A stretch of 64,000 nucleotides of DNA, taken from the NCBI RefSeq assembly GCF_003443535.1, contig NZ_CP031947.1, forward strand, positions 679,268 through 743,267. The letters run 5' to 3'. Below the pieces are notes generated by a model that saw only the letters and a program-made list of their open reading frames with translations, was not told the origin of the DNA and made no database searches. Made by a program: the position numbers and the translations under genes. Shown piece after piece: positions 1 to 23,318 of the stretch. The stretch is from Ruegeria sp. AD91A. GTDB lineage: Bacteria > Pseudomonadota > Alphaproteobacteria > Rhodobacterales > Rhodobacteraceae. The stretch's first letter is position 1. The number at the start of each line of letters is the position of its first letter.

Positions 1-678
1 ATGCCCGGCGGCAATGTCATTCTGAACGGCGGCCTCAAGCGCCGAGGGAACAATCCCGAAGTTCGGCCCCTGTGTGGGCAATTTGACCAGATTGTCCTGA
101 CCAATCCCAGCGACCCAGCAGGCCCGGTCAATCGACGAATGCACCTGATCCGAACAATAAATCCGCAATGCACCCTTCGCGTTCAGACCTTCTCGGTTGC
201 CGGTAAAGCCGGTGGCCCGTTCCCGCATGGTCAGCACTGCTGATAACGTAGCCGAAGAGGCGCTGTCCTGAATGACGCCGGTCATGCCCTCAGGCAATCC
301 AAGGGCCTGCCGCAACCATTCGACCATGACGCCTTCAACCTCGGTCGCGGCAGGCGATGTCTGCCACAACATGCATTGCGCTGCGATAGTCGTCACCAGC
401 ATCTCGGCCAACATGGACGGGGGCGCGGCATTGGCCGGGAAATACGCAAAGAAGCGTGGATGCTGCCAATGGGTGATGCCCGGCATCACGATCCGTTCGA
501 AATCGGCCAGGATGGCGTCCATCGGCTCGCCTGTCTCGGGTGGTACTGGCACAAGCTGGGCCGCGATTTCCCCCGGCGCGGTCTGCGCCCGCACGGGACG
601 TTCAGCAAGTGTCTTGTGATAATCCGCCGCCCATTTCGAGATGTGCTGACCCCAATACGAAAACGTGTCCCAGTTCAT
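1..678 (-). CDS. PLP-dependent group II amino acid decarboxylase, N-terminal part (runs off window)
   Basis: The reverse strand is open from ATG at 678 to the window edge (226 codons, no stop). The protein begins MNWDTFSYWGQHISKWAADY and carries stretches typical of aromatic-L-amino-acid/tyrosine decarboxylases: PGITHWQHPRFFAYFP near residue 70, SPAATEVEGVMVEWL near 110 and QDSASSATLSAV near 140. These precede the PLP-lysine region, which lies outside the window. It is the last visible gene of the hpaF-hpaE-hpaD direction, 58 bases after hpaD, so co-transcription is likely. Substrate is not provable. An aromatic amino acid such as tyrosine or DOPA would fit the homoprotocatechuate context, because amines of these feed into hydroxyphenylacetates. 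Confidence 0.85.
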   Translation of the reverse strand, partial: MNWDTFSYWGQHISKWAADYHKTLAERPVRAQTAPGEIAAQLVPVPPETGEPMDAILADFERIVMPGITHWQHPRFFAYFPANAAPPSMLAEMLVTTIAAQCMLWQTSPAATEVEGVMVEWLRQALGLPEGMTGVIQDSASSATLSAVLTMRERATGFTGNREGLNAKGALRIYCSDQVHSSIDRACWVAGIGQDNLVKLPTQGPNFGIVPSALEAAVQNDIAAGH

Positions 679-736: not shown

Positions 737-1579
737 TCACACCGAAAAGCTGACATTTGCCTGACCGGTGCCAGAGCTGCCGAAATACGGGGTGTAAATG
801 TCAATTTCACCCTTGTAGCTTCCCCAACCCAACGCACCAAACAGCAAAGCGGTGTCATTCATGGCGCATTCGCCAGTGCATTTCGTTGCATAGTCCGGCA
901 GCATTTCAAGGAACTCTTCAAACTTGCCCTGCTGCCACAACTCCAGAACGCGCATGTCCATCTGGCGGTTGAACTCGCCATTCACTGCATTCAACCCGTC
1001 GACCGAGCGTTCATTCGGAGTGAAGTCGTGGCTGAGCGAGCCGGACGCCAGAATGGAAACATTGCGGTCCGAACGTCGGATGCCTTCGGCAATGGCCTCG
1101 CCCCAGGCCCGGTTTTCTGCAATCGACGAGAATTGATTGACTGCCACCGGCAATACCCGGGCATTCACACCGTCGTTGATGAAATGCATCGGCAGCAGGG
1201 TGCCGTATTCCATGCCCATGTCGGGGTGCGAATGGCCCAGCGCCCGCTCTCCCCGTTCGCGCAGAACGTCTAGGATGGTTTCCCCAAGTTCATGATCGCC
1301 GCGATAATCGAACTCCATATCCGCCAACATATGCGGCAGTTCGTGACTGATGAATCGACCCTTGTGACGTTCTTTCGTATTCAGGTGAAACCCTTGATTG
1401 GTGATCCAATGGGTGTCGAACACAATAAACGTCTCGACCCCGCGATCTATCGCGTCCTGACGCAGGCGTTCATACCCATCAATGGCAGATTGCCGGATGC
1501 CTTTGTATTTTGGCATCGTGTGGGACATCCAGATGCTGGGTACATGCGTAATCTTTGCGGCCTGTACTATCTTTCCCAT
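737..1579 (-). CDS. hpaD: 3,4-dihydroxyphenylacetate (homoprotocatechuate) 2,3-dioxygenase, class III extradiol
   Basis: The 280-residue protein belongs to the LigB-type extradiol dioxygenases, which open homoprotocatechuate with O2 to 5-carboxymethyl-2-hydroxymuconate semialdehyde in the cytoplasm. Likely iron ligands are visible as His12 (KITHVPS), His57 (FDTHW) and Glu237 (TGECAMND). Length matches HpaD of the meta-cleavage pathway rather than the cupin-type HPCD. It lies 54 bases downstream of hpaE on the same strand, directly before the next pathway enzyme's substrate-supply genes. No damage is seen. The hpaE and hpaF neighbours make the substrate assignment firm at family level. Confidence 0.9.
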   Translation of the reverse strand: MGKIVQAAKITHVPSIWMSHTMPKYKGIRQSAIDGYERLRQDAIDRGVETFIVFDTHWITNQGFHLNTKERHKGRFISHELPHMLADMEFDYRGDHELGETILDVLRERGERALGHSHPDMGMEYGTLLPMHFINDGVNARVLPVAVNQFSSIAENRAWGEAIAEGIRRSDRNVSILASGSLSHDFTPNERSVDGLNAVNGEFNRQMDMRVLELWQQGKFEEFLEMLPDYATKCTGECAMNDTALLFGALGWGSYKGEIDIYTPYFGSSGTGQANVSFSV

Positions 1580-1633: not shown

Positions 1634-3142
1634 CTACTTACCCAACTGCATGATCTTGTGCTGACCGGTGGCAAAGCCAATGTGTTTCTGTTCCATATAG
1701 AATTCAAAGCTCCAGTCGCCGCCATCCCGGCCGATGCCGGACGCCTTGACCCCTCCGAACGGCGTTGGCAAGTGACGTACGTTCTCCGAATTCACCCAGA
1801 TCATTCCAGCCTCCAGCCTGTCTGTAAACCGAAGCGCGCGGGTCAGATCATTGGTCCAGACATAGCCGGTCAGGCCATAAGGTGTGTCGTTGGCGATCTC
1901 CAGCGCCTCGTCCTCGGTCGAGAACGGGATCGAGGTCAGGACAGGGCCAAATATCTCTTCCCGTGCGATGCGCATTTGGTTGGTGGCATTGGTGAACAGG
2001 GTCGGCCGGACAAAATAGCCCGCATCCCCCACCGTGACGCCGCCAGCGGCGACAGTTGCGCCATCTTCCTTGGCGACGTCGAAATAGCTCGTAACCTTGT
2101 TGTAGTGTTCTTCAGTCACCAACGGCCCAATCTCGGTCTCCGGGTCCAAGGGGTGGCCCACCTTGATGCTGTTGACGCGTTCAATCAGTCTGGCTTCGAA
2201 TTCTTCCTTGATCGTGTCCTGCACCAGAAGTCGCGAAGACGAGGTGCAGCGTTCGCCATTGATCGAATAGATCATAAAGATCACGGCATCCAACGCGCGG
2301 TCCAGATCTGCATCGTCAAACACGACAACGGGGTTTTTTCCGCCCAATTCCAAATGGTTGCGCTTATGGGTGTCTGCGCCTTGCTTGACGATCAGACTGC
2401 CGGTACGACTTTCGCCCACAAAAGCAATGGCCTTGATCAGTTCATGCTCGCACAAAACCTTGCCAGCGTCGGGGCCAAATCCGTTGACCGTGTTCAGCAC
2501 ACCTTTGGGCAGCCCTGCCTGTTCGGCGATTTCCACCAGCAGGCGAGCCGTCAGAGGGGAATCCTCGGCGGGTTTGTGAACCACCGTGCAACCCGCAGCC
2601 AACGCAGGCGCGATCTTCCAGGTCGACAGCATGAACGGCGTGTTCCACGGGGTGATCACGCCAACCGGGCCAATTGGCACACGGGTCGTAACATTCATCA
2701 GTGTCGGAGACTTCAGGTGCTGCCCGTCCCGTGCCTGAATCACCTGATCCGCGAAATACCGGAAGTTCTCTGCGCCCCGCAACGCTGCCTTTGACATGAA
2801 GCGCAGAGTCTGCCCTGTGTCCCAGCACTCGCACAGTGCTATTTCCTCGGCGCGGGCTTCAATGCCATCAGCCACATTCAACAAAATGCGACGGCGTTCG
2901 GTGGCGGGAATGTCTCGCCACTCTGCAAAGGCTGCATGAGCGGCCTTGGCTGCCGCGTCAATATCATCACCCGTGCCATGGGCAACATCACAGATCACGG
3001 ATTTATCGACGGGCGAGACAGACTGAAACACTCCGGCAGATCCGTCCCGATCTTCACCCGCTATACGGTTGCGGATGCCAGTTTCCCGGAACCGGTCCAG
3101 AAAGCCGTTCAGCTTTTCGATGTTTGTGTCCAATGCACTCAT
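1634..3142 (-). CDS. hpaE: 5-carboxymethyl-2-hydroxymuconate semialdehyde dehydrogenase
   Basis: A 502-residue NAD-dependent aldehyde dehydrogenase. It has the proton-relay Glu in LELGGKNP and the nucleophile Cys in NGERCTSSSRL, both at the usual spacing, and the PWNTPFM cofactor loop near residue 165. In the HPA pathway it oxidises the HpaD product to 5-carboxymethyl-2-hydroxymuconate. Start ATG at 3142 is only three bases after the hpaF stop, so translation is probably coupled. The closest family is HpaE-type, but aldehyde dehydrogenases are promiscuous by sequence; the assignment relies on being sandwiched between hpaF and hpaD. Confidence 0.9.
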   Translation of the reverse strand: MSALDTNIEKLNGFLDRFRETGIRNRIAGEDRDGSAGVFQSVSPVDKSVICDVAHGTGDDIDAAAKAAHAAFAEWRDIPATERRRILLNVADGIEARAEEIALCECWDTGQTLRFMSKAALRGAENFRYFADQVIQARDGQHLKSPTLMNVTTRVPIGPVGVITPWNTPFMLSTWKIAPALAAGCTVVHKPAEDSPLTARLLVEIAEQAGLPKGVLNTVNGFGPDAGKVLCEHELIKAIAFVGESRTGSLIVKQGADTHKRNHLELGGKNPVVVFDDADLDRALDAVIFMIYSINGERCTSSSRLLVQDTIKEEFEARLIERVNSIKVGHPLDPETEIGPLVTEEHYNKVTSYFDVAKEDGATVAAGGVTVGDAGYFVRPTLFTNATNQMRIAREEIFGPVLTSIPFSTEDEALEIANDTPYGLTGYVWTNDLTRALRFTDRLEAGMIWVNSENVRHLPTPFGGVKASGIGRDGGDWSFEFYMEQKHIGFATGQHKIMQLGK

Positions 3143-3145
3143 GCG

Positions 3146-3544
3146 TCAGGTCTCCTGCGTGGTCGCGTCCAAGTGGTCGCGGATCGTACCAGCCTTGGGC
3201 GACAGCTTGGGGTCGATGTCACGCATCTCAAGCGAGAGCGCGATGGAATGCTGTGAAAAAACCGGCGCCAGATATGCTTTGACCGCCTCAAAAATGCGCT
3301 GGGTGGCGTCGTGTTTGACATCAGCGGGCCGGCCTGCCCGCAGGCGGATCGAGATATCAATAAGCCCATGCGCCGGGTTGCCGTCCGCTATGGCGTAATG
3401 ATCGACCCGCGTCGCGCGCACACGAATGCCCGGCATCGGAAAGGTCTCAATCTCAGCAGCCGTTGCCCGAATGCATTCGCATAGGCCATCCATGTCGATC
3501 CTGTCTTCCAGATTACCGGAGTATTCGACGTGGAAGTGGGGCAT
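3146..3544 (-). CDS. hpaF: 5-carboxymethyl-2-hydroxymuconate delta-isomerase
   Basis: A small tautomerase-fold enzyme (132 residues) that isomerises the HpaE product. The ATG at 3544 was chosen over an upstream in-frame ATG at 3568 because it yields Met-Pro-His-Phe: tautomerases need an N-terminal proline as catalytic base after Met removal. A good ribosome site (AGGAG) lies just upstream. The C-terminal half (LSLEMRDIDPKLSPKAGTIRD) is typical of CHMI proteins. It is the first gene of the minus-strand operon hpaF-hpaE-hpaD-decarboxylase and faces hpaR across about 100 bases. Confidence 0.9.
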   Translation of the reverse strand: MPHFHVEYSGNLEDRIDMDGLCECIRATAAEIETFPMPGIRVRATRVDHYAIADGNPAHGLIDISIRLRAGRPADVKHDATQRIFEAVKAYLAPVFSQHSIALSLEMRDIDPKLSPKAGTIRDHLDATTQET

Positions 3545-3563
3545 GGTTTCTCCTCTATTAGTT

Positions 3564-3571
3564 AACATGTT
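3564..3571. promoter_or_regulatory. Possible HpaR operator core in the hpaF-hpaR divergent region
   Basis: The intergenic region between hpaF and hpaR holds AACATGTT, an 8-base perfect palindrome inside the AT-rich stretch GTTAACATGTTTAG. MarR-family regulators such as HpaR bind palindromes in the divergent promoter region. Position, not a known consensus, is the support. Confidence 0.35.
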
Positions 3572-3649
3572 TAGTATTTAATGCATTCCCTGTCAAGAGA
3601 TTGCTTTGTTAATCTTTGCAATTTCCGAGATGACATTCTAGAAGGCCGC

Positions 3650-4090
3650 ATGAACACTCAAAGCCATTCCAAAAGCACCGCCCGGTCCCTTCCGATCGCG
3701 CTGCTGCGAGCCCGCGAAACCGTCATGGCTCCGATCCGGGACATGCTGCAAGGCATCCAACTGACCGAGCAGAAATGGCGCATCCTGCGTGTTTTGGACG
3801 AGCTGGGCGAAGTGGAACAAAGCACCATCGCGCATGAGGCATGCCTGCTGCTACCCAGCGTGACCCGCATTTTGCGCACGATGGAGGCCGATGGCCAGAT
3901 CACCCGCCGTCAGGATAGCGACGACAAGCGCCGCACCATGGTCAAGATCACGGATTCAGGCCGCTCTATCCTCAAGGAGAACCTGGCCACATCACTCGCC
4001 ATCTCCAGTAATATCGAAGCGCAGATGGGCACCGAGAAGCTGGATCAACTGCTGGACCTGCTCGAGGAATTGCAGGCCATCAAAGCCTGA
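3650..4090 (+). CDS. hpaR: MarR-family regulator of homoprotocatechuate degradation
   Basis: The 146-residue protein has a winged-helix MarR core: recognition segment TIAHEACLLLPSVTRILRTM at about residues 60-80, then a wing with DSDDKRRTMVKIT. The N-terminal SLPIALLRARETVMAPIRDML segment is typical of HpaR. HpaR normally represses the divergent hpa operon until hydroxyphenylacetate is present. ATG at 3650 (MNTQSHSK) is preferred to an in-frame ATG at 3581, which would add 23 non-homologous residues and run into the operator region. It converges on the aminotransferase at 4124, with a terminator between. Confidence 0.85.
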   Translation: MNTQSHSKSTARSLPIALLRARETVMAPIRDMLQGIQLTEQKWRILRVLDELGEVEQSTIAHEACLLLPSVTRILRTMEADGQITRRQDSDDKRRTMVKITDSGRSILKENLATSLAISSNIEAQMGTEKLDQLLDLLEELQAIKA

Positions 4091-4123: not shown

Positions 4124-5476
4124 TTACAGGGTCCCCAATCCAGCGTCCAAAGCCGATAGAATTTTAGTCACATCTTCCGAAGTGACGATCAGCGGCGGCG
4201 ACAGAATGATGTTGTTGCCTGATACGCGGACCATCACGCCGTCTTCATATGCAGCTTTCTGAACCTGTAGCGGCAGGTGTTTTGCGATAGGTGCCTTGGT
4301 CGCCCGATCCGAGACCAGTTCCAATGCACACATCAGGCCCTCACCGCCCCGCACGTCCCCGATCGCGTCATGCTTGTCGGCCAGCTTTTGCAAGCCGGCA
4401 AACAACTCATGCCCGCGCGCGGCAGCGTTTTCCCAGATCCGTAGGCGGTTGATCTCGGACAGGGCGGCCAAAGCTGCGGCCGCGCCGACCGGATGGCCGG
4501 AATAGGTATACCCCTGATCGACGGATGCCAGACCCGTGGTGTCACTTTCAAAAACCTCTGCGACCGCGCCCGAAATCATGGCCGCGCCAAAAGGGAAATA
4601 CCCATTGGTGATCGCCTTTGCCGTCGTCATGATATCCGGCTGGACGCCCCAGTGCCGCGCACCACTTTCACTGCCGGTGCGACCAAAAGCGGTGATAATC
4701 TCGTCCGAGATCAGCAGGATGCCGTGCCTGTAACAGACCTCGCGCACCATGGGCATGAAACTCTTGTGCGGCGGGATCACGCCTCCTGCCCCGAGAACCG
4801 GCTCCATGATGAAGGCCGCAACGGTGCTTGCACCCTGAAATGCGATCTCGGCCTCAAGCGCCTTGATACAAAGCTGCGCCAGACGCTCGGGATCGGTTTC
4901 GTCAAACGGATTGCGATAGGTCCAGGGGGCCGGCACGTGGTAGCAGCCCGGCATCATCGGCTCATACACCGCGCGGAACTTCTGGTTGCCGTTGACAGAG
5001 GCGGCAGCAAAATGAGTGCCGTGATAGCCCTGCTTTAGGCTGATGAACTTGGTACGTCCGGCTTCACCCCGGACTTTGTGATACTGGCGCGCAAGTTTCA
5101 GAGCTATTTCGACAGAATCCGACCCACCCGACGTAAAGAAAGCGCGGGTCAGCCCGTCAGGCTCAAAGAACTGGGCCAGTTCATAAGACAGCTCAATCGC
5201 CTTGTCGTTGCTGGTGCCCCGAAAGGTGGAGTAGTAAGGCAACGCATTCAGTTGATCCGCTATGGCCCGCTTCACCGGTTCACAGGAATAGCCCAGATTG
5301 ACGTTCCACAGCCCCCCTACGGCGTCCAGCGCCCTGTGGCCATCGACATCAATGATGCTGACCCCTTCACCACCGCTGAGAATTGTCGGCGGGTTCTTCC
5401 GGCTGTCGGCGGGATGCGCCATCGGGTGCCAGAAGTATCGGGCGTTGTTTTCCTTCAGAAAGTTGGAGTCTTTCAT
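4124..5476 (-). CDS. Class III (omega) aminotransferase
   Basis: A 450-residue fold-type I PLP enzyme of the omega-amino acid:pyruvate aminotransferase group. Visible markers are the phosphate-binding TSGGSDSVEIALKLAR, YHGTHFAA, the PLP-ring Asp in LLISDEIITAFGRTG, and the Schiff-base Lys in MTTAKAITNGYFP. ATG at 5476 (MKDSNFLKENNARYFWHP) matches the family N terminus; the open frame extends further upstream without homology. It follows the IclR-type regulator by 34 bases in the same direction, so the two are probably co-transcribed. The natural amine donor is unknown; the neighbouring amine/amino-alcohol operon suggests a related role. Confidence 0.85.
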   Translation of the reverse strand: MKDSNFLKENNARYFWHPMAHPADSRKNPPTILSGGEGVSIIDVDGHRALDAVGGLWNVNLGYSCEPVKRAIADQLNALPYYSTFRGTSNDKAIELSYELAQFFEPDGLTRAFFTSGGSDSVEIALKLARQYHKVRGEAGRTKFISLKQGYHGTHFAAASVNGNQKFRAVYEPMMPGCYHVPAPWTYRNPFDETDPERLAQLCIKALEAEIAFQGASTVAAFIMEPVLGAGGVIPPHKSFMPMVREVCYRHGILLISDEIITAFGRTGSESGARHWGVQPDIMTTAKAITNGYFPFGAAMISGAVAEVFESDTTGLASVDQGYTYSGHPVGAAAALAALSEINRLRIWENAAARGHELFAGLQKLADKHDAIGDVRGGEGLMCALELVSDRATKAPIAKHLPLQVQKAAYEDGVMVRVSGNNIILSPPLIVTSEDVTKILSALDAGLGTL

Positions 5477-5510: not shown

Positions 5511-6290
5511 TCACGGGTGGAATTCGGTTGGAAAGGAGTCGGGCAACTGGCCGCCAAAACCAGCGGTCAGATCAGCCGAAAGTGAATGCAACGTTGACAG
5601 TATTGCCGGAAGGCGGTCGCTGGTTGCCCGGGTTTCAGGGACAGCTATTGCGATGGTTCCCAGTGCAATCTGATCGATGCCGAAGATCGGCGCGGCATAT
5701 CCAAAAACACCTTCTTCGTAACTGCCGCGGCTGTCGGCCCAGCCTGAAACTCTGATCTTTGCGACCCGCTCTTTGATGAGCTTCGGATCAGTAAGCGTGG
5801 CTTGTGTAAACCGTGCCTGCACGTCCTGATCCAACTGCTCCAAAAGGTGGGCCGGTCCGAAACTGAGCATGCACAGACCGGAAGCCGTCGCATTGAGCGG
5901 AAGCATCTCGCTGGGATCAAGACTGACCCGGACACTGTGCCGCGTTGTTTCCACCACCAGCGCTGTCTGTAATCCCGTTTTCTCCAGCAAGGACAGATGC
6001 AGGGATTCACCGACCATCTGCATTGCGGCCTGCATTTTTTGGCGCGCGCGCTCAATGCCGGGTCTGGCGATCTCTCGCAGTGCGGCCAAACGCAATGCCG
6101 CCGGCCCGATGGCATAAGTTTTTGTCATCGGATTCTGTTCGATCAACCCGAACTCCTCAAGCGCGCGCAGGTGGCGCAATGCCGTTGCCTTGTTCAGCCC
6201 GGACAACCGCGCCAGGTGACTCAGCCCGATCTCTGGGCGGGCATTGGAAAAGTAATCCAGCATTTTTAGGGCGTTAAGGGCTGTGCCCAT
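5511..6290 (-). CDS. IclR-family transcriptional regulator
   Basis: The 259-residue protein starts with a winged helix (IGLSHLARLSGLNKATALRHLRAL, about residues 20-43) and continues with an IclR effector domain (LPLNATASGLCMLSF; SRGSYEEGVFGYAAPIFG). It is divergent from the transporter operon at 6399, and the shared region carries two inverted repeats, one of them a perfect palindrome of IclR style. It therefore most likely controls both the aminotransferase side and the transporter-kinase-lyase operon. The effector is unknown. Confidence 0.85.
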   Translation of the reverse strand: MGTALNALKMLDYFSNARPEIGLSHLARLSGLNKATALRHLRALEEFGLIEQNPMTKTYAIGPAALRLAALREIARPGIERARQKMQAAMQMVGESLHLSLLEKTGLQTALVVETTRHSVRVSLDPSEMLPLNATASGLCMLSFGPAHLLEQLDQDVQARFTQATLTDPKLIKERVAKIRVSGWADSRGSYEEGVFGYAAPIFGIDQIALGTIAIAVPETRATSDRLPAILSTLHSLSADLTAGFGGQLPDSFPTEFHP

Positions 6291-6381: not shown

Positions 6382-6398
6382 ACTAACGGGAGGTGTCA

Positions 6399-7328
6399 AT
6401 GAAGAAATTTCTAACAGCCGCCGCTTTTGCAGCTTCGGCCACTGCCGCACTGGCAGAGTACCCTGAGAAGCCGGTAAGCTTTGTCGTACCTTGGCCTCCG
6501 GGCGATCTGGAAGATGTCCTTACCCGGATGATCGCCGACGAATTCCAGGCCATGTACGGTGTGCCTGCTGCTGTCGTGAACAAACCCGGAGGTGGCGGTG
6601 GCCCATTCCCCGGCGCTGTCGAGGTGGCAACCGCTCCGGCGGATGGTTACACCATCGGCTCTTTCGTCATCGGAGTACCCGTCATTGGCCCCGAGATCGG
6701 AATTCCCGAACTCAACCCGAATCCTTTCGATCCAATTGGCATCTTCCTGACTTATCCCTTCGTCATCGCAGCGAGCAAAGACGCACCGTTTTCAAGCTGG
6801 GAAGAACTGGCCGAATACGGCAAGGAAAATGACGTGGCGCTTGGCCATTTCGGATCGGTTCTGCCGCCCACTCAGGTCACATTTGCAGCTGCGGTCAGCA
6901 GCGGGTTCGACTTTGCCAGCGAAGCGGCATTTGACGCCTTGGATTGCAACACGCTGGCCTCAGGCGACGTGGATGTAATCAATACGACGCTACAGCTTAT
7001 CCTTCCCTGCCTTGATCAGGTGAACGTCCTTGCCAGCATCGGTGGCGAGCGGATTTCACTGGTTCCGGATACGCCGACGATCGTGGAACTCAATCCGGAC
7101 CTGCCATTGGCTCTTTGGAACGGGCTGTTTGTGCACAAAGACACGCCTGCCGACGCGCGTGAAAAGATCTCGGCTGCCGCCCAGAAAGCGTTGTCCTCGG
7201 ACAAAGCCAAGAAGCTGGCTGAGGAAACAGGCGCACTGATCTACTGGCAGGACCCGGACGCATCCAATGCTCAGATCGAGCAGGACAAAGCCTCTTTTGC
7301 CAAGATCGAAGAGATTCTGGGCGAATAG
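6399..7328 (+). CDS. TctC-type periplasmic binding protein of a tripartite tricarboxylate (TTT) transporter
   Basis: The 309-residue precursor has a signal peptide (MKKFLTAAAFAASATAALA, cleavage near residue 20) and the Bug/TctC receptor fold: YPEKPVSFVVPWPPG at the mature N terminus and PGGGGGPFPG in the first ligand loop. The start ATG 6399 follows a GGGAGG ribosome site; a GTG two codons earlier is less likely. It is the first gene of the operon and is separated from the membrane genes by a terminator-like hairpin, typical for a receptor needed in excess. TTT receptors bind mainly carboxylates or small zwitterions; the ligand here is unknown. Confidence 0.85.
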   Translation: MKKFLTAAAFAASATAALAEYPEKPVSFVVPWPPGDLEDVLTRMIADEFQAMYGVPAAVVNKPGGGGGPFPGAVEVATAPADGYTIGSFVIGVPVIGPEIGIPELNPNPFDPIGIFLTYPFVIAASKDAPFSSWEELAEYGKENDVALGHFGSVLPPTQVTFAAAVSSGFDFASEAAFDALDCNTLASGDVDVINTTLQLILPCLDQVNVLASIGGERISLVPDTPTIVELNPDLPLALWNGLFVHKDTPADAREKISAAAQKALSSDKAKKLAEETGALIYWQDPDASNAQIEQDKASFAKIEEILGE

Positions 7329-7335
7329 TCCGAAG

Positions 7336-7371
7336 AAGGCCCGGCAAGGTCGAACAACGCCGGGCCTTTTT
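7336..7371 (+). terminator. Intercistronic terminator/attenuator behind the binding-protein gene
   Basis: AAGGCCCGGC (7336-7345) pairs perfectly with GCCGGGCCTT (7359-7368) over a 13-base loop, followed by a run of T to 7371. Placed between the receptor and the permease genes, it would let most transcripts end after the receptor. Confidence 0.75.
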
Positions 7372-7391
7372 CTTTCAAACAGGAGGCCAAA

Positions 7392-7928
7392 ATGATAGCA
7401 AAGACACTGCAAGACATGTTCCGACGTTATCGACGTCCTGGCGATATTGTCTTTGCCTTCCTTTTCTTCGGTTGCTCCCTGTTCCTTCTCAGCCAGATCG
7501 GCACTGAGACTCAGGCTGTCAAACGAACCAAGTGGTTTGCCCAGCCCGCCCTTTGGCCCAAGATCGCGATCTGGGGTATGGTTTTGTTCAGCGGCCTCCA
7601 CTTGCTGAGCTCTTTCCTGTCCCCGCGCATTCCCGGACGTTTGCGAGAGGTGACGTTCTGGTTGATGTCCCTCGAATACGTTGCCTACTTCCTGATCTAT
7701 GTCGTGGCGGTTCCGTGGCTTGGGTATCTGCCCTCCACCATGCTTTTTGCGGCCCTGCTGACGATACGATTGGGATTTCGACTGCCTGGGGCTTTTTGCG
7801 TTGCACTTACCTTCGGCGCGGTCGTGGCCGTCGTCTTCCGCGCGCTGCTTCATGTGAACATTCCTACCGGTCGGATATACGAATTCTTGCCCGATGGGCT
7901 GCGCGCCTTTGCGCTGACCTACCTGTGA
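7392..7928 (+). CDS. TctB-type small permease subunit of the TTT transporter
   Basis: A 178-residue membrane protein with four hydrophobic segments (about residues 18-36, 56-74, 90-110 and 118-145), as usual for the poorly conserved TctB family. The order receptor, small permease, large permease and the 7-base gap to the TctA gene support the assignment more than the sequence itself. It is needed with TctA for sodium- or proton-driven uptake. Confidence 0.75.
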   Translation: MIAKTLQDMFRRYRRPGDIVFAFLFFGCSLFLLSQIGTETQAVKRTKWFAQPALWPKIAIWGMVLFSGLHLLSSFLSPRIPGRLREVTFWLMSLEYVAYFLIYVVAVPWLGYLPSTMLFAALLTIRLGFRLPGAFCVALTFGAVVAVVFRALLHVNIPTGRIYEFLPDGLRAFALTYL

Positions 7929-7935
7929 GGCCAAG

Positions 7936-9456
7936 ATGGACAATCTGATTTCCGGCTTTGCAATTCTGGCACAGTGGCAGGTCGTCGTGGCACTAGTCAT
8001 CGGATCGGTGGGCGGCGTCATCATCGGCGCGTTGCCCGGCGTCGGCGCTGCTGTGGCAATTGCCATTCTGCTGCCCGCCACCTTCGCGTTTGAGCCCATC
8101 GTCGGCCTGACCCTTCTGTTGGGCATTTACGGGTCGTCCATGTATGGCGGTGCAATTCCTGCCATTCTGATCAACACGCCTGGCACGGCCGTCAACGCAC
8201 TGACCACCTATGACGGCTATCCCATGACCAAGCGCGGCGAGGGACACCGAGCCCTGTCGCTGGCCTATTCGGCGTCGTTTTTCGGCGGCATCTTCTCGAT
8301 CCTCTGTCTGATCATCCTATCGCCTGTGTTGGCCTGGGTTGCCCCACATTTCGGAAGCCGCGAAATATTCCTGGCTGCGTTAATGGGCATCCTTCTGGTG
8401 ATCCTGGCCCATCGCGGGCAGACCTTTTCGGCCGCGATGCTGGCGTTCTTCGGCATTTTCCTCAGCACCGTCGGTCTGGAACCCGTCAAATACACCAAAC
8501 GTTTTACCTTTGACCAAACCTGGCTTTCGTCAGGTGTCGATCTGATCGTGGTGGTTCTTGGGCTGTTCGCCATCAGTCAGGCGCTGCTGCTGCTGGTCGA
8601 CAAAGAACACGCGCCGGGCGAAGCCCATGTGCGCGGCAGCATCTTCGCGGGCCTCAAAGAACTACTGGGCCTGAAACGCATCGCAACGGTGTCGTCATCG
8701 CTGGGTGTGCTCATGGGCATGGTACCGGGCACAGGCGAATTCACATCACAGTTCCTCTCATACACATACGCACAGAAAACCTCTGAAGACCCCGACAAAT
8801 TTGGCGATGGGTCACCAGAAGGTCTGGTGGCGTCCGAGGCGGCCAACAATGCCGTTCCTGGGGCCGCAATGATTCCGCTGCTGGCGCTGGGTATTCCTGG
8901 CGAAGCGCTGACCGCGATGATGCTTTCGGTCTTCTATGTTCACAACGTCATTCCCGGACCACAGCTTTTTGCCGATCAGATGGATTTTGTCATGGCACTG
9001 TACATGTCGCTGATCCTGCTCAATGTGATCGTTCTGGTCTTTTTGTTGTTCTCGACCAATCTGTTGCTGAAGATCATTCAGATCCCGACGCGCTTTCTGG
9101 GGATCATGATCCTGACGCTTTCCTTTGTCGGTGTATTTAGCCTGCGCAACTCAGTCACGGACTGCGCCATTGCCGCCGGGTTCGGCGTGTTCGGGCTGAT
9201 CCTGAAGCGCCTGAACCTGCCCATTGTTCCGATCATTCTGGGCATGGTTCTGGGCGGGATCATGGAAGTCAAACTGCGCAGCGCCATGGCGCGGGTGAAG
9301 ACACCACTTGATTTCATTGACCGGCCGATTGCCGCAATACTATTCATCATGATCCTTGGGGTCATTCTGCTCCACGTTCGCTCGCTGATCAAGGAACACA
9401 AGGAACGCATCACACCGCAACCGGTTCTCGACGAAGACTCAACTCAGCAAGGATAA
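7936..9456 (+). CDS. TctA-type large permease subunit of the TTT transporter
   Basis: The 506-residue protein has about a dozen membrane segments and the family signature near the N terminus, GALPGVGAAVAIAILLP, with a second related motif at GMVPGTGEFTSQFLSY in the C-terminal half (inverted repeat of the fold). It forms the channel of the three-part importer. The gene is intact and is followed seven bases later by the aldehyde dehydrogenase, so importer and enzymes are in one operon. Confidence 0.9.
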   Translation: MDNLISGFAILAQWQVVVALVIGSVGGVIIGALPGVGAAVAIAILLPATFAFEPIVGLTLLLGIYGSSMYGGAIPAILINTPGTAVNALTTYDGYPMTKRGEGHRALSLAYSASFFGGIFSILCLIILSPVLAWVAPHFGSREIFLAALMGILLVILAHRGQTFSAAMLAFFGIFLSTVGLEPVKYTKRFTFDQTWLSSGVDLIVVVLGLFAISQALLLLVDKEHAPGEAHVRGSIFAGLKELLGLKRIATVSSSLGVLMGMVPGTGEFTSQFLSYTYAQKTSEDPDKFGDGSPEGLVASEAANNAVPGAAMIPLLALGIPGEALTAMMLSVFYVHNVIPGPQLFADQMDFVMALYMSLILLNVIVLVFLLFSTNLLLKIIQIPTRFLGIMILTLSFVGVFSLRNSVTDCAIAAGFGVFGLILKRLNLPIVPIILGMVLGGIMEVKLRSAMARVKTPLDFIDRPIAAILFIMILGVILLHVRSLIKEHKERITPQPVLDEDSTQQG

Positions 9457-9462
9457 CCCCCC

Positions 9463-10947
9463 ATGGACCAATCCTCGATTGATGCGCTGCGTGCGCAGGA
9501 CATTGCTCCGCGCGGGCATTTCATAAACGGCCGCTATCAGGATGGCGAAACCGGGGCCCGGCATCAAGTTCTGTCTCCGATCAACGGTCAGCCTCTGGCG
9601 CTGATCGCCGAGGGCACGCCTGCGGATGTCGAGTCAGCCGTTCGTGCGGCGCGCCTAGCGTTCGAGGATGGGCGATGGGCGCGCATGGCCCCTGCCGACC
9701 GCAAGAAAGTATTGCTGAAACTGGCTGACCTGATCGAAGCACGCGCGCTTGAGCTAGCCGTGCTGGGCGTGCGCGACAACGGAACCGAGATCACCATGGC
9801 TTACAAGGCCGAGGCACTCTCGGCGGCTGCTACTTTCCGGTACTACGCCGAGGCGATCGACAAGATTTATGGACAAATCGCCCCGACAAGCGGTGATGTT
9901 CTGGGGCTTGTACATCACGCTCCGGTCGGGGTTGTCGGGGCCATCGTACCGTGGAACTTTCCACTGATGATCGGCAGCTGGAAAATTGCACCGGCACTGG
10001 CCGCAGGCAATTCCGTCGTCCTGAAACCTGCCGAAAGCGCCTCACTCAACCTGCTGAAGATTGCCGAGCTTGCCGCAGAAGCCGGAGTGCCCGACGGGGT
10101 GTTCAATGTCGTGACCGGGCGTGGCTCGGTCGTGGGTGAGGCTCTGGCCCTGTCGATGGACGTCGACATCATGGTGTTTACCGGGTCGGGCACAACCGGA
10201 CGGCGGCTGTTGGAGTATTCCGCTCGGTCGAACCTGAAACGCTGCTATCTGGAACTAGGCGGCAAGTCCCCTAACATCGTTTTTTCCGATGCCCCTGATC
10301 TGTCCGAAGCGGCCAAGGTCTCAGCCGCTGGCATCTTCCGCAATTCTGGTCAGGTCTGTGTCGCCGGATCTCGCCTGCTGGTCCAGCAAGAGGTTTACGA
10401 GGACTTCGTGACCGAGATCAGCCGCCATGCTGAAAGCTTCCGCGTCGGCGACCCGCTGGACCTGAACAGCCAGATCGGCGCGGTGCACAGCCTGCCAGAG
10501 CTTCAGGCCAATCTGGATTTCGTGACCAAAGCCGAAGCAGAAGGCGCCGAGCGCCGGACGGGCGGAAACCGCATCCTGACAGAGACCGGAGGCTACTACA
10601 TGGCGCCGACCGTCATGGCCAACGTGAAAGAGACCGACAACCTGTTCCAGAACGAAGTCTTCGGCCCCGTACTGGCGGTTACGCCTTTCAAGGATGAAGA
10701 CGAAGCGATCCGTCTGGCCAATGCCACGGTCTATGGGCTGGCTGGCGGTGTCTGGACCTCGAACTTCAGCCGCGCGCATCGCATGGTGGCCGGCATTCGC
10801 GCCGGTGTTGTGCACGTCAACACATATGGCGGTGCCGACCTGACTGTGCCGCTGGGCGGGGTTCGCCAGTCGGGCAATGGACACGACAAATCTCTGCACG
10901 CACTGGAAAAATACTTCGATCTGAAAACCGCATGGATAAAACTCTGA
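9463..10947 (+). CDS. NAD(P)-dependent aldehyde dehydrogenase (PuuC/betaine-aldehyde-dehydrogenase-like)
   Basis: A 494-residue aldehyde dehydrogenase with PWNFPLMIGSWK near residue 165, catalytic Glu in LELGGKSPN near 265 and the nucleophile Cys in NSGQVCVAGSRL near 300. It resembles dehydrogenases for omega-amino and other small aldehydes. In this operon it sits directly before the phospho-lyase-like PLP enzyme and the kinase, so it is a good candidate for oxidising the aldehyde made by that pair. The sequence alone does not fix the substrate. Confidence 0.85.
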   Translation: MDQSSIDALRAQDIAPRGHFINGRYQDGETGARHQVLSPINGQPLALIAEGTPADVESAVRAARLAFEDGRWARMAPADRKKVLLKLADLIEARALELAVLGVRDNGTEITMAYKAEALSAAATFRYYAEAIDKIYGQIAPTSGDVLGLVHHAPVGVVGAIVPWNFPLMIGSWKIAPALAAGNSVVLKPAESASLNLLKIAELAAEAGVPDGVFNVVTGRGSVVGEALALSMDVDIMVFTGSGTTGRRLLEYSARSNLKRCYLELGGKSPNIVFSDAPDLSEAAKVSAAGIFRNSGQVCVAGSRLLVQQEVYEDFVTEISRHAESFRVGDPLDLNSQIGAVHSLPELQANLDFVTKAEAEGAERRTGGNRILTETGGYYMAPTVMANVKETDNLFQNEVFGPVLAVTPFKDEDEAIRLANATVYGLAGGVWTSNFSRAHRMVAGIRAGVVHVNTYGGADLTVPLGGVRQSGNGHDKSLHALEKYFDLKTAWIKL

Positions 10948-10962
10948 AAGAAGGCCGACCTC

Positions 10963-12258
10963 ATGACTCTTCCAGCGAAATCTGTTGAACTCATTGAGCG
11001 CCGGGCCAGGCTATTGGGCCCTAACGTGTCGACGTTCTACTACGAGCCGGTTCATTTTGTGAAAGGCGAAGGCGTCTGGTTGTGGGATGCGGACGGGCGT
11101 AAATATCTGGATTGCTACAACAACGTGCCACATGTGGGTCATTGCAATCCGCGCGTGGTCGAGGCGATCTGTCGTCAGGCGCGCACGCTCAACACGCACA
11201 CCCGGTATCTGCACGACGGGATTCTGGACTATGTGGAAAAACTGACCGGGACGATGGATGCAGCGCTGAATACGGCCATCCTCACCTGCACCGGTTCCGA
11301 GGCAAATGACATTGCTTTGCGAATGGCAGAGGCAATGACCGGAAAACGAGGGATCATTGCCACTGACGCCACCTATCATGGAAATACAGCGCTGGTCAGC
11401 CAGTTGAGCAAATCGAACATCCCGACAGTCGGCTTCGGGCTGAGCAAGTATTTCCGTTTTGTCGGCGCACCCGACAGCTATCGCGATCCCGACCCGGACG
11501 GGTCAAAATTCGCCGATGCCGTGGCGGAACAGATTGCCGAGCACGAAAAGGCCGGCACCGGCTTTGCCGCATTGATCGTCTGCCCTTATTTTCTGAACGA
11601 AGGCTTTCCAGACAATCCGGACGGTTGGCTGGCACCCACGGCCAAGGTCGTACGCCAGGCCGGCGGCCTGTTGATCTGCGACGAGGTGCAATCAGGCTTT
11701 GGCCGAACCGGCACCCATATGTGGGCGCATCAGAAGATGGGCGTTGTGCCGGACGTCATGACTTTGGGCAAACCCATGGCCAACGGCCATCCGGTGGGCA
11801 GCGTGGTCACACGTTCCGAGATCATTTCGGCGTTCCGCAAGGGATATCGGTACTTCAACACGTTTGGCGGAAACCCTGTTTCCTGTGCTGCAGCGATGGC
11901 GGTTTTGGAAGAGATCGAAGACCAGAGCCTGGTCGCACATGCCAAATCCGTTGGCGACCATGCGCGAAAACGACTGAAGCTTTTGAAAGAAAAGTATGAC
12001 GTCATCGGAGACATACGCGGCTCGGGGCTGATATTCGGGGCCGAAATGGTCCTTGATCGCGACAGCAAGCAGCCCGCCAGTGAATTCACTGACCGTACCA
12101 TCAACGCCATGCGCCAGCGCGGGATTATTCACTCCAAGCTTGGACGCCATAAGAATGCTCTGAAAATTCGACCACCCATGCCATTCTCTATCAAAAACGC
12201 GGATCTTCTCTTTGACACGCTGGACGAAGTTTTGGCGAAAACGCCGCTGGTCGCATGA
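10963..12258 (+). CDS. Class III PLP enzyme resembling phosphoethanolamine/phosphohydroxylysine phospho-lyases
   Basis: The 431-residue protein has the class III aminotransferase fold: GSEANDIALR, Asp240 in LLICDEVQSGFGRTG and Schiff-base Lys270 in MTLGKPMANGHPVG. Its N-terminal segments CYNNVPHVGHCNP (about 51-63) and LNTHTRYLHDGILDY (76-90) match the subgroup of human ETNPPL and PHYKPL, which do not transaminate but eliminate phosphate and ammonia from a phosphorylated amino alcohol to leave an aldehyde. The gene overlaps the downstream APH-fold kinase by four bases (ATGA), tying lyase and kinase together. Ordinary transamination cannot be excluded. Confidence 0.8.
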   Translation: MTLPAKSVELIERRARLLGPNVSTFYYEPVHFVKGEGVWLWDADGRKYLDCYNNVPHVGHCNPRVVEAICRQARTLNTHTRYLHDGILDYVEKLTGTMDAALNTAILTCTGSEANDIALRMAEAMTGKRGIIATDATYHGNTALVSQLSKSNIPTVGFGLSKYFRFVGAPDSYRDPDPDGSKFADAVAEQIAEHEKAGTGFAALIVCPYFLNEGFPDNPDGWLAPTAKVVRQAGGLLICDEVQSGFGRTGTHMWAHQKMGVVPDVMTLGKPMANGHPVGSVVTRSEIISAFRKGYRYFNTFGGNPVSCAAAMAVLEEIEDQSLVAHAKSVGDHARKRLKLLKEKYDVIGDIRGSGLIFGAEMVLDRDSKQPASEFTDRTINAMRQRGIIHSKLGRHKNALKIRPPMPFSIKNADLLFDTLDEVLAKTPLVA

Positions 12259-13196
12259 AGCAGATCGTGGAACAGGCGCTGACCCTTTGGGAACTGGTCG
12301 ATAGCGAATGGTCTCTCGTGGCTGCTCGCGAAAACTGCGTCTATCGCGTTCAGGCAGGCCAGACCGCCTATGCTCTGCGACTGCATCGCAAAGGGCTGCG
12401 AACGGATGTCGAACTCCGTTCAGAGCTACAATGGATGGCCGTTCTCGGCAAAAACGGGGTCGGAGTTCCAACTCCTGTCCCGGCCGCAGATCGACGCTAT
12501 CTGCATCTGGTGGACGGCATTCAGGTCGACATGCTCAACTGGTTGCCGGGCAGCCCTTTGGGTGCGACCGGATCAGCCTTGGAGCAGCGCGACAGAAACG
12601 GCGTCTTCCACACAATTGGCAGAGAAACGGCGCGACTGCATGACATCAGTGACCAATGGACTCGTCCGCACGACTTCACGCGTTGGTCATGGGATCGTAG
12701 CGGGCTGCTTGGAGACACCCCTCTCTGGGGTCGATTCTGGGAGAACCCAACGCTTGGGAAAACGGACCGATCACTTTTCCTGGCGTTCCGAGACGTCGCA
12801 GATCGTGACCTTCAGCGCGTGGAAAAGCAGTTGGATTACGGGCTGATCCACGCCGATCTTGTCCGCGAAAACATCATGGTTGATGGTGACAAACTGTGGC
12901 TTATCGACTTCGACGATTCCGGTTTCGGTTTTCGCCTGTTTGATATCGCGACAATACTCCTCAAGAATCTGCGCGAACCGGATTTCAACCAGTTGCACGA
13001 TGCTTTGCTGGCCGGGTACCGATCGGAACGAACGATCTACACCGCGCAACTTGACCTGTTCATGGCACTTCGCGCGGCAACATATGTGGGATGGGTTGCA
13101 TCCCGCCTGAATGAAGAAGGATCGGACATACGCAATGTGCGGTTCATTGAAACCGCCCGAGGGTTGATGACCAAATACCTCGAACGCCACACTTAG
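12255..13196 (+). CDS. APH-fold small-molecule kinase (hydroxylysine/ethanolamine-kinase-like)
   Basis: A 313-residue phosphotransferase of the APH/choline-kinase fold. The catalytic loop HADLVREN is at residues 199-206 and the metal-binding segment DFDDSG at 218-223. The start codon overlaps the stop of the phospho-lyase-like gene, so translation is coupled. Relatives phosphorylate hydroxyls of amino alcohols, sugars or antibiotics. The partner enzyme suggests the substrate is an amino alcohol such as 5-hydroxylysine or ethanolamine, phosphorylated before elimination. An antibiotic-resistance role is unlikely in this context. Confidence 0.75.
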   Translation: MKQIVEQALTLWELVDSEWSLVAARENCVYRVQAGQTAYALRLHRKGLRTDVELRSELQWMAVLGKNGVGVPTPVPAADRRYLHLVDGIQVDMLNWLPGSPLGATGSALEQRDRNGVFHTIGRETARLHDISDQWTRPHDFTRWSWDRSGLLGDTPLWGRFWENPTLGKTDRSLFLAFRDVADRDLQRVEKQLDYGLIHADLVRENIMVDGDKLWLIDFDDSGFGFRLFDIATILLKNLREPDFNQLHDALLAGYRSERTIYTAQLDLFMALRAATYVGWVASRLNEEGSDIRNVRFIETARGLMTKYLERHT

Positions 13197-13209
13197 ACGG
13201 GAGGCACCA

Positions 13210-14445
13210 ATGGCCAAAAAGACAATCCTGCTGATTGGTACTTATGACACCAAAGAGCCCGAGATGCGGTTCATCGAAAAGGCGGTCAGAGCGCAGGGTG
13301 CCGACGTCCTGACCATGGATGTCTCGGTTCTGGGTGATCCGTCCGATCCAACTGATATCTCAAAGCACGACGTGGCCGCAGCCGGTGGCATGACCATTGA
13401 AGAAGTCATCGCGCAAGGAGACGAAAACAAAGCCTTTCGCGCAATGTCGGCCGGGGCAGCAAAGGTCGTTGCAAAGGCTTATTCAGAAGGTCGGTTTGAC
13501 GGAATGCTTGCCACGGGTGGAACCATGGGCACGGACCTTGCGCTGGATTGTGCGCAGGCGCTGCCGATGGGCGTTCCCAAATACATCGTATCAACGGTCA
13601 GCTTCTCACCTCTGATTCCTCCGCATCGGCTTGCACCTGACATTCAGATGATCCTCTGGGCCGGCGGCCTGTATGGCATGAACTCGATCTGCAAGTCTTC
13701 GCTCAGCCAAGCTGCCGGGGCCGTCGTGGGCGCAACCAAAGCGGCGACCGCCCCCGATCGCAGCAAACCTCTGATCGGTATGACCAGCCTTGGTTCGTCC
13801 TGCCTGCGTTACATGAAAACTCTGAAACCGGCATTGGAAGACCGCGGGTTTGAAGTGGCCGTGTTCCACTCTACCGGCATGGGCGGCATGGCTTATGAAA
13901 AACTGGCAGGCGAAGGCGCGTTTGCCTGCGTGATGGACTTCTGCATGCAGGAATTCGGCAACCTGATGGCGGGTTCCGTTGTCTCCAGCGGCGATGACCG
14001 TGTCACCAATGCCGGACGTGTAGGAACACCACAGATGGTGGCCCCAGGTGCGCTGGATCTATTGGACTTTGCGGGTTGGCAGGATATCCCCGAGCAATAC
14101 GCTGATCGCCCGTTCCATGAACACAACCGCCTGATCAAAAGCTCGGTCTTCAACGGGGCTGAACGACGTTCCTGGATTCGGGAACTCACGAACCGGCTGG
14201 AAGCCGCAACCGGGCCCGTGCATTTCTTTTTGCCCGTTCAGGGCGTCGAGGATTGGGACAAGGAAGGCGAAGAAGCGCATGATCCAAAGGCACTGGCCGA
14301 AATGGTGGATGAAGCGCGCAAGGTCATGCCCGGTCGGGTGCCGATGACAGAACTGGACGTTCACATCAACGACGCGGCTTTCTGCGAAGCAGTTCTGTCC
14401 CGGTTTGACAGGTGGGTTGAAACCGGGGTTGTCAGAACAGACTGA
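13210..14445 (+). CDS. UPF0261 / Tm-1-like ATP-binding protein
   Basis: The 411-residue protein is a full-length member of the UPF0261 family related to the N-terminal domain of tomato Tm-1. It shows the typical opening ILLIGTYDTKEPEM and the glycine-rich LATGGTMGTDLAL near residue 100. Members bind ATP and dimerise; their cellular role is unsettled. It closes the operon 13 bases after the kinase. In other bacteria such proteins also occur in catabolic operons, so an accessory function (salvage or repair of an intermediate) is possible but unproven. Confidence 0.8.
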   Translation: MAKKTILLIGTYDTKEPEMRFIEKAVRAQGADVLTMDVSVLGDPSDPTDISKHDVAAAGGMTIEEVIAQGDENKAFRAMSAGAAKVVAKAYSEGRFDGMLATGGTMGTDLALDCAQALPMGVPKYIVSTVSFSPLIPPHRLAPDIQMILWAGGLYGMNSICKSSLSQAAGAVVGATKAATAPDRSKPLIGMTSLGSSCLRYMKTLKPALEDRGFEVAVFHSTGMGGMAYEKLAGEGAFACVMDFCMQEFGNLMAGSVVSSGDDRVTNAGRVGTPQMVAPGALDLLDFAGWQDIPEQYADRPFHEHNRLIKSSVFNGAERRSWIRELTNRLEAATGPVHFFLPVQGVEDWDKEGEEAHDPKALAEMVDEARKVMPGRVPMTELDVHINDAAFCEAVLSRFDRWVETGVVRTD

Positions 14446-16825: not shown

Positions 16826-16840
16826 TCCCACTCCCAAACA

Positions 16841-16872
16841 CTCTTTCGCCGGGCTTCTGCCGGGCGAAAGAG
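16841..16872 (+). other. Intercistronic hairpin behind the binding-protein gene
   Basis: CTCTTTCGCC (16841-16850) pairs with GGCGAAAGAG (16863-16872), with an inner GGC/GCC stem. There is no T run, so mRNA stabilisation of the upstream binding-protein message is more likely than full termination. Confidence 0.55.
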
Positions 16873-16897
16873 CTGGGTAACTTCGGAAAAGAAACCT

Positions 16898-17560: not shown

Positions 17561-17571
17561 AGGACGCTCGG

Positions 17572-18953: not shown

Positions 18954-18992
18954 GTGCACCGGTCCCCTGAAACAACGAGGAAGATCAACTTC

Positions 18993-20875: not shown

Positions 20876-20941
20876 CAAAACTATCGGGGATTGGCGCAAT
20901 CCGGCCCCCGGTACCGAACCACAGTTTGAAAAGATCTGGCC

Positions 20942-22192: not shown

Positions 22193-22207
22193 TCTGGAGA
22201 ACATCAC

Positions 22208-23311: not shown

Positions 23312-23318
23312 GGTAAAC

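Follow-up and report, generated by a model that had tools for sequence, protein, structure and literature searches.

The seven-gene operon at positions 6399-14445 of a 64-kb stretch of DNA from Ruegeria sp. AD91A (the window, which is the final 64 kb of a 743-kb contig in a genome of 4.4 Mb) probably directs the degradation of an aromatic β-amino alcohol of the phenylethanolamine type (H2N-CH2-CHOH-aryl). Judging from the surrounding genes, the most likely substrate in this organism is noradrenaline or a close catechol relative. Central to this proposal are an APH-fold kinase and a class III pyridoxal phosphate (PLP) enzyme that belongs, by its sequence, with phospholyases and not with transaminases. 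Because the operon abuts a homoprotocatechuate (hpa) ring-cleavage pathway, an aromatic amino alcohol is favored over the ethanolamine- or hydroxylysine-like substrate that an earlier reading of the DNA letters alone (the sequence-only reading) had in view. An aliphatic substrate is retained as a rival explanation, and its standing is lowered by the hpa and paa gene contexts.

Organization of the operon

The operon comprises the following close-packed genes, all on the forward strand:

6399..7328, + strand, TctC, TTT importer substrate-binding protein (PF03401, 55.5 bits; closest solved structure BugD 2f5x, 85 bits)
7392..7928, + strand, TctB, small membrane subunit (PF07331, 45 bits)
7936..9456, + strand, TctA, large membrane subunit (PF01970, 436 bits)
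9463..10947, + strand, aldehyde dehydrogenase (PF00171, 528 bits; closest solved structure KauB 6b4r, 509 bits)
10963..12258, + strand, class III PLP phospholyase, P0005 (PF00202, 257 bits; closest solved structures 5g4i and 6tor)
12255..13196, + strand, APH-fold kinase, P0006 (PF01636, 100 bits, cutoff 23.2; closest solved structure 6ef6, 155 bits)
13210..14445, + strand, UPF0261 / Tm-1-like protein (PF06792, 158 bits, and PF23189, 205 bits)

The sequence-only reading had listed a TTT transporter, an aldehyde dehydrogenase, a class III PLP enzyme, an APH kinase overlapping it by 4 bases, and a UPF0261 protein, all in one direction, and profiles and coordinates agree with it for each gene. The importer is complete by profiles, with TctA, TctB, and TctC all present; the tctC open reading frame begins at a GTG at 6393, and its ATG is at 6399. 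In operon order the intergenic gaps are 63, 7, 6, 15, -4, and 13 bases, where the negative value marks the overlap of the lyase and kinase genes, and a single transcript is therefore likely. Promoter- and terminator-like sites were not in excess of those in shuffled sequence. An identical gene order is found on a plasmid of Ruegeria sp. THAF33.

The kinase catalytic motif HADLVRENIMVDG...DFD (HxD...N...DFD) is intact at residue 199, and a stricter form of it matches 93 of 101 related kinases. In NCBIfam the top hit of this protein is homoserine kinase, at only 62 bits against a cutoff of 271, and we infer from its setting that it is an aromatic amino-alcohol kinase. The aldehyde dehydrogenase, which scores 535 bits against NCBIfam PuuC (under the cutoff of 850), is a putative arylacetaldehyde dehydrogenase. 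The UPF0261 protein exceeds the cutoff of NCBIfam PRK02399.1-4 (580 bits, cutoff 556); its closest solved structure is 9mpy at 210 bits, and Tm-1 (3wry) scores 128 bits.

The PLP enzyme groups with phospholyases

Among solved structures, the PLP enzyme best matches the A1RDF1 phospholyase (5g4i, 376 bits) and human ETNPPL (6tor, 335 bits), and the next family, dialkylglycine decarboxylase, follows at 193 bits. A protein named as from Ruegeria atlantica is 94% identical to it. The segments NNVPHVGHCNP and NTHTRYLHD, which the sequence-only reading had recognized as typical of ETNPPL and PHYKPL, are located at residues 53 and 77, and the PLP-site motifs CDEVQ (residue 239) and GKPMANGHP (residue 269) are intact. 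Eight alignment columns (R14, G19, N54, N77, G235, P271, F298, and K401) are found only in phospholyases and are absent from 10 transaminase rows.

Phylogeny of the PLP enzyme, a check proposed with the original reading, places it with A1RDF1 and ETNPPL. In a careful tree of 33 rows, a branch with support of 100/100, present in all 200 bootstrap trees counted, separates 27 of 27 phospholyase rows from 6 transaminase rows, and in a tree of 131 rows a branch with support of 100 unites 121 rows, all of phospholyase type. The transaminases used were the class III enzymes of the same genome and the neighboring PRK07481 aminotransferase, and both trees were flagged for long branches among these rows. 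One of them (L003) is weakly nearest the phospholyases in the 131-row tree, outside their fully supported branch. A transaminase identity for the PLP enzyme, which would have counted against the sequence-only reading, was rejected by both trees. Within the phospholyases, enzymes of the window and A1RDF1 types share a clade (97/91 in the 33-row tree), with ETNPPL, the kinase-fused PRK06148 type, and a kinase-first type outside.

A second phospholyase, fused to a kinase, is encoded on contig C1 of the same genome (PRK06148, 1446 bits, cutoff 1128). Because the genome has no match to EutB, this fused enzyme may serve an aliphatic amino alcohol.

The adjoining homoprotocatechuate pathway

Left of the operon, the window carries the following genes:

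5511..6290, - strand, IclR-family regulator, divergent from the operon (PF01614, 83 bits; PF09339, 48 bits)
4124..5476, - strand, class III aminotransferase, PRK07481 type (NCBIfam PRK07481, 720 bits, cutoff 575; closest solved structure omega-transaminase 5lh9, 429 bits)
3581..4090, + strand, HpaR, MarR-type homoprotocatechuate regulator (TIGR02337, 134 bits, cutoff 121)
3146..3568, - strand, HpaF, 5-carboxymethyl-2-hydroxymuconate isomerase (PF02962, 134 bits, cutoff 26.5; NCBIfam PRK15031, 70 bits, cutoff 215)
1634..3142, - strand, HpaE, 5-carboxymethyl-2-hydroxymuconate semialdehyde dehydrogenase (TIGR02299, 751 bits, cutoff 638)
737..1579, - strand, HpaD (LigB type), 3,4-dihydroxyphenylacetate 2,3-dioxygenase (TIGR02298, 355 bits, cutoff 316)
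1..678, - strand, end part of a DOPA-decarboxylase-like PLP decarboxylase (full gene L089:16549-17946; PF00282, 316 bits; closest solved structure 7xin DOPA decarboxylase, 372 bits)

Beyond the left edge of the window (locus L089) come the remainder of the decarboxylase gene and then genes for an HpaG-like protein (TIGR02303, 162 bits, under the cutoff of 276), HpaH (TIGR02312, 382 bits, above the cutoff of 352), and HpaI (TIGR02311, 344 bits, under the cutoff of 369), followed by paaK and paaG. HpaF, HpaG, and HpaI thus fall under their NCBIfam cutoffs and exceed those of Pfam, and HpaD, HpaE, HpaH, and HpaR exceed curated cutoffs. By these profiles, the genes beside the operon amount to the homoprotocatechuate (3,4-dihydroxyphenylacetate) meta-cleavage pathway, and the corresponding genes of Ruegeria sp. 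THAF33 are annotated as hpa. None of this pathway, nor the DOPA-decarboxylase-like enzyme or the aminotransferase across the divergent IclR regulator, had been listed by the sequence-only reading. The hydroxylase HpaB (PF11794) had no match in this genome; its profile scored in 6 of 14 control genomes, 4 of them over the cutoff.

Two starts and one fusion deserve comment. For the PRK07481-type aminotransferase the open reading frame list gives a start at 5557, and the position 5476 is taken from the annotated THAF33 relative of 450 amino acids; the annotated THAF33 relative of HpaR begins about 69 bases further on. HpaI aldolase and DUF2218 share one open frame at L089:13834-14970, and the incomplete THAF33 gene table has DUF2218 alone, with hpaI not listed. 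Downstream of the operon, positions 16025-24344 of the window hold a hydroxyproline catabolism block with genes for ABC importer parts, a DHDPS-family protein, 4-hydroxyproline epimerase, an FAD oxidoreductase, cis-3-hydroxy-L-proline dehydratase, and trans-3-hydroxy-L-proline dehydratase.

A proposed kinase-phospholyase route

As in the ETNPPL and PHYKPL reactions, enzymes of this lyase family act on compounds in which a terminal amine neighbors a carbon that carries a hydroxyl. In the route that we propose, the TTT importer would take up an aromatic β-amino alcohol and the kinase would phosphorylate its benzylic hydroxyl. The PLP enzyme would hold the primary amine as an external aldimine, eliminate phosphate, and then release ammonia to leave an arylacetaldehyde, so that kinase and lyase together would yield arylacetaldehyde, ammonia, ADP, and phosphate. 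The aldehyde dehydrogenase would convert this aldehyde to the arylacetate, here 3,4-dihydroxyphenylacetate, whose ring would be cleaved by the Hpa enzymes from HpaD onward. Amines that have no hydroxyl, such as dopamine and tyramine, could be deaminated to the same aldehyde by the PRK07481-type aminotransferase, and the decarboxylase could produce such amines from DOPA or tyrosine.

The chemistry that the sequence-only reading had put forward, in which import, phosphorylation, elimination, and oxidation follow one another, fits the evidence. Its view of the operon as self-contained does not, since the route abuts the homoprotocatechuate pathway, and the TTT importer is not an essential component of it, since an APC permease takes its place in several related clusters. 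A catechol substrate is favored in this genome because HpaB was not found. By the same use of context, the substrate would be of the noradrenaline type here, of the octopamine type in rhizobia, where HpaB is present, and phenylethanolamine where paa genes flank the pair.

A protein of the FAD/GcvT type (L013:1604-4099) lies beside one lyase-kinase operon and has relatives in 12 loci in total. The L013 protein, the only one tested, is similar to proteins of the sarcosine oxidase type (TIGR01372, 175 bits, below the cutoff of 1164). It is possibly an N-demethylase for N-methylated amino alcohols; as the lyase is expected to require a primary amine, adrenaline- or synephrine-like compounds would first have to pass through such an enzyme.

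Recurrence of the lyase-kinase pair

The pairing of lyase and kinase is not due to chance. At 117 related-lyase loci a kinase was called in 102, and in 101 of these the lyase gene precedes the kinase gene on one strand; the sole exception, L091, has the two on opposite strands. The 4-base overlap is kept in 71 of the 101 same-strand pairs. Of the 15 loci with no called kinase, 8 belong to two other lyase types (7 with the kinase gene first, 1 fused), and this query did not pick up the kinases there.

Neighborhoods were compared in the 80 best of 321 related stretches, each taken with flanks of up to 10 kb. The kinase was called in 74 of these loci, an aldehyde dehydrogenase and TctC in 51 each, the PRK07481-type aminotransferase in 43, and the UPF0261 protein, which recurs beside the pair across relatives, in 45. 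At least one hpa enzyme is present in 30 of the 80 loci, at distances of 6 to 9755 bases from the lyase. Stricter thresholds changed only the counts for fam13 (15 to 12), SDR (17 to 14), VOC-type HpaD (12 to 11), and MBL (12 to 11).

Related lyases adjoin hpa or paa genes in members of the Rhodobacterales and Rhizobiales, in Gammaproteobacteria, and in Sphingobium and Paenarthrobacter. A single stretch of Rhizobium leguminosarum carries HpaB, a flavin reductase, an aldehyde dehydrogenase, an APC permease, an IclR regulator, UPF0261, and HAD proteins, and also an aminotransferase, the lyase, the kinase, hpaR-F-E-D, gabD, and hpaG-H-I; the rhizobial set, HpaB included, is present at three further loci (L163, L169, and L170, in f10/g146 genomes). 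Shinella has hpaI-H-G, a decarboxylase, and hpaD-E-F, then UPF0261, HAD, aminotransferase, lyase, and kinase, with HpaB absent from the stretch read. The genes hpcB, hpcD, and HpaR lie near the pair in Sphingobium, and an annotated tyramine oxidase lies near the lyase cluster in Phyllobacterium. In Mesorhizobium AR07 a permease, the lyase, and the kinase are followed by paaX, pcaF, and paaABCDE, and paa genes also adjoin the pair in a genome of another class (G262, L157). The A1RDF1 locus on the Paenarthrobacter plasmid pTC2 includes a kinase, aldehyde dehydrogenases, hpaE, and HpaI. In four gammaproteobacterial loci (L065, L066, L068, and L071), hpa enzymes lie 239-3885 bases from the lyase, with a kinase called in L066 only. 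What the two branches at the clade's deepest split have in common is thus a pathway for arylacetates, with hpa genes for a hydroxylated ring and paa genes for a ring that lacks hydroxyls.

The association extends to whole genomes. Among 120 family genomes from 119 genera, 33 have the lyase (E <= 1e-150) and 47 have HpaE at a score above its cutoff, with both in 24, lyase only in 9, HpaE only in 23, and neither in 64 (p 4.9e-6, which, like the p-values that follow, is a guide only). When the lyase is at least 62% identical to that of the window, HpaE is present in 15 of 16 genomes vs 32 of 104 others (Fisher p 1.8e-6); the 62% line was set after the table had been seen, and one of the 16 genomes (G102) falls in an 11-row subclade discussed below. 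HpaB occurs in none of these 16 genomes and in 9 of the 47 with HpaE (0 of 15 vs 9 of 32, p 0.041). In a phylum sample, the lyase (E <= 1e-120) occurs in 23 of 398 genomes, and hpa or paa genes adjoin it in 4 of the 19 stretches read (L157, L163, L169, and L170).

Several observations lie to one side of this pattern. Relatives of the lyase (E <= 1e-80) are found on 381 plasmid records, megaplasmids included, and because such relatives are common on plasmids and 134 of the 381 records are predicted to be conjugative, horizontal spread of the family is suggested. L065 and L071 have further genes between TctC and the lyase, and genes before the lyase in L071 resemble, by eye, a cytochrome P450 and a glutamine-synthetase-like ligase. 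A kinase-first sister clade (L095, L100, L121, L123, L124, L125, and L126) has hpa or paa genes in 0 of 7 fetched stretches and mostly GntR regulator, SDR, or ABC importer genes nearby; in Chelatococcus (L100) the pair adjoins ectoine/hydroxyectoine genes. This clade looks like another kinase-phospholyase route with no assignment.

Weighing the alternatives

A number of points weigh against an aromatic amino alcohol as the substrate. No hpa enzyme was seen in the fetched flanks of 50 of the 80 loci; in 31 of these each flank exceeds 9 kb, and the other 19 are shorter. An 11-row subclade at 57-62% identity had no hpa, TTT, or UPF0261 gene called in its stretches. At lower lyase identity HpaE is only weakly enriched (9 of 17 vs 23 of 87 genomes, p 0.033), and because the genomes compared are related, all of these p-values overstate independence. 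The linked kinase is not universal among hpa-adjoining lyases: L065, L068, and L071, with a lyase 239-1023 bases from an hpa enzyme, have no relative of this kinase within the stretch at a threshold as loose as E 10. Carboxylates are the usual cargo of TTT importers, and what is imported may be an amino acid, for example DOPA or a phenylserine. Finally, A1RDF1 was reportedly assayed on phosphoethanolamine. The 11-row subclade and the other loci with no hpa genes may act on other substrates or may have hpa genes elsewhere in the genome. As a side observation, this subclade consists of Rhodobacterales loci (L103-L109, L115-L117, and L120) whose lyase-kinase pair lies outside any hpa/TTT cluster, and several of these loci have neighbors that resemble, by eye, nicotinate phosphoribosyltransferase and nicotinamidase.

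In one rival proposal, the pair acts on an aliphatic amino alcohol (ethanolamine, 1-aminopropan-2-ol, or hydroxylysine), and its aromatic neighbors either have no connection with it or belong with it to a mixed amine island. The closest characterized relatives bear the names phospholyase and ethanolamine-phosphate phospho-lyase, and the lack of a EutB match is in keeping with this view, as are the loci and the subclade that have no hpa enzyme nearby. We nevertheless consider it unlikely, given that hpa or paa adjacency recurs in unrelated arrangements, that the lyase co-occurs with HpaE at the genome level, and that the kinase-fused phospholyase could take the aliphatic substrate. A variant of the aromatic proposal, in which a phenolic, octopamine-type compound is hydroxylated on the ring by an unrecognized enzyme ahead of HpaD, is conceivable but doubtful. 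Rhizobial clusters carry HpaB, and in them a phenolic compound may therefore be the substrate of this lyase family, but an HpaB-type match was found neither here nor in the 16 genomes with a lyase of at least 62% identity, in searches that covered this hydroxylase family. It is very improbable that the PLP enzyme is an omega-transaminase and that the kinase acts elsewhere, for example as a homoserine kinase. NCBI names several relatives aminotransferase or homoserine kinase, the latter being the best NCBIfam match of the kinase despite its low score, and the kinase is missing from the vicinity of a few hpa-linked lyases. Both trees and the eight phospholyase columns oppose this reading, as do the conserved 4-base overlap and the existence of kinase-PLP fusions.

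With degradation of a catechol-type amino alcohol thus preferred for the window, we lean slightly toward a broader proposal. Benzylic phosphorylation and a dedicated PLP phospholyase may constitute a widespread bacterial route, with no genes assigned until now, for noradrenaline, octopamine, and phenylethanolamine, and for N-methyl forms after demethylation; it would supply the octopamine and synephrine dehydratase genes, and the true substrate of A1RDF1 would be an aromatic O-phosphate. If this is true, genes would be in hand for the bacterial breakdown of catecholamine-type amino alcohols, and O-phosphoamine phospho-lyases would extend from aliphatic to aromatic substrates. Many database names, such as aspartate aminotransferase and homoserine kinase, would be corrected, and a crystallized bacterial phospholyase would seem to have been characterized with a surrogate substrate.

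Comparison with known systems

A search of open-access literature (titles and the starts of abstracts) found no description of a kinase or a phospholyase that acts on octopamine, noradrenaline, or phenylethanolamine and no paper on octopamine dehydratase or on A1RDF1, which is weak evidence because most subscription journals lie outside its scope. The available text of PMC8154272 (2021) documents ETNPPL and one closely related enzyme as the phosphate-releasing lyases of the class III subgroup. As far as their accessible portions go, the main text of PMC10848231, on TRIS degradation, has no words beginning with lyase, kinase, or phospho; five amine terms are all absent from PMC3053370; PMC3534580 describes Arthrobacter using tyrosine and 4-hydroxyphenylacetate via homoprotocatechuate and does not treat octopamine or synephrine; and the subject of PMC7028382 is catecholamine dehydroxylation. 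An aromatic version of the kinase, phospho-lyase, and aldehyde dehydrogenase route was not found in the open-access literature searched.

The closest counterpart is A1RDF1 (AAur_pTC20101, Paenarthrobacter aurescens TC1, 5g4i/5g4j), which shares a phospholyase clade with the window enzyme and has an APH-fold kinase, aldehyde dehydrogenases, and hpa genes within 12 kb. However, its identity to the window enzyme is only about 43%, its kinase (AAur_pTC20099) lies on the opposite strand, and its locus has an APC permease, with TTT and UPF0261 not found in the stretch. The animal enzymes ETNPPL and PHYKPL, the latter working with hydroxylysine kinase, are likewise class III PLP lyases that free phosphate and ammonia from O-phospho amino alcohols. 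They differ in their aliphatic substrates, and ETNPPL falls outside the clade of the window and A1RDF1 enzymes; PHYKPL was not in the tree. In the 1970s, Jones, Faulkner, and Turner reportedly described a kinase for ethanolamine or 1-aminopropan-2-ol and an O-phosphate phospho-lyase in Pseudomonas and Erwinia, a route with the same kinase, lyase, and aldehyde dehydrogenase logic and, again, aliphatic substrates.

The hpa pathway is commonly fed by 4-hydroxyphenylacetate through HpaB, whereas here HpaD, HpaE, HpaH, and HpaR exceed curated cutoffs, HpaF, HpaG, and HpaI score more weakly, and no HpaB was found in the genome. Octopamine dehydratase (EC 4.2.1.87) and synephrine dehydratase (EC 4.2.1.88) convert an aromatic amino alcohol to an arylacetaldehyde and an amine, the same net change as in the proposed route. 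To our knowledge, they are described as ATP-free hydro-lyases, in which they differ from it, and their genes have not been assigned; the kinase-phospholyase route could supply genes for both activities.

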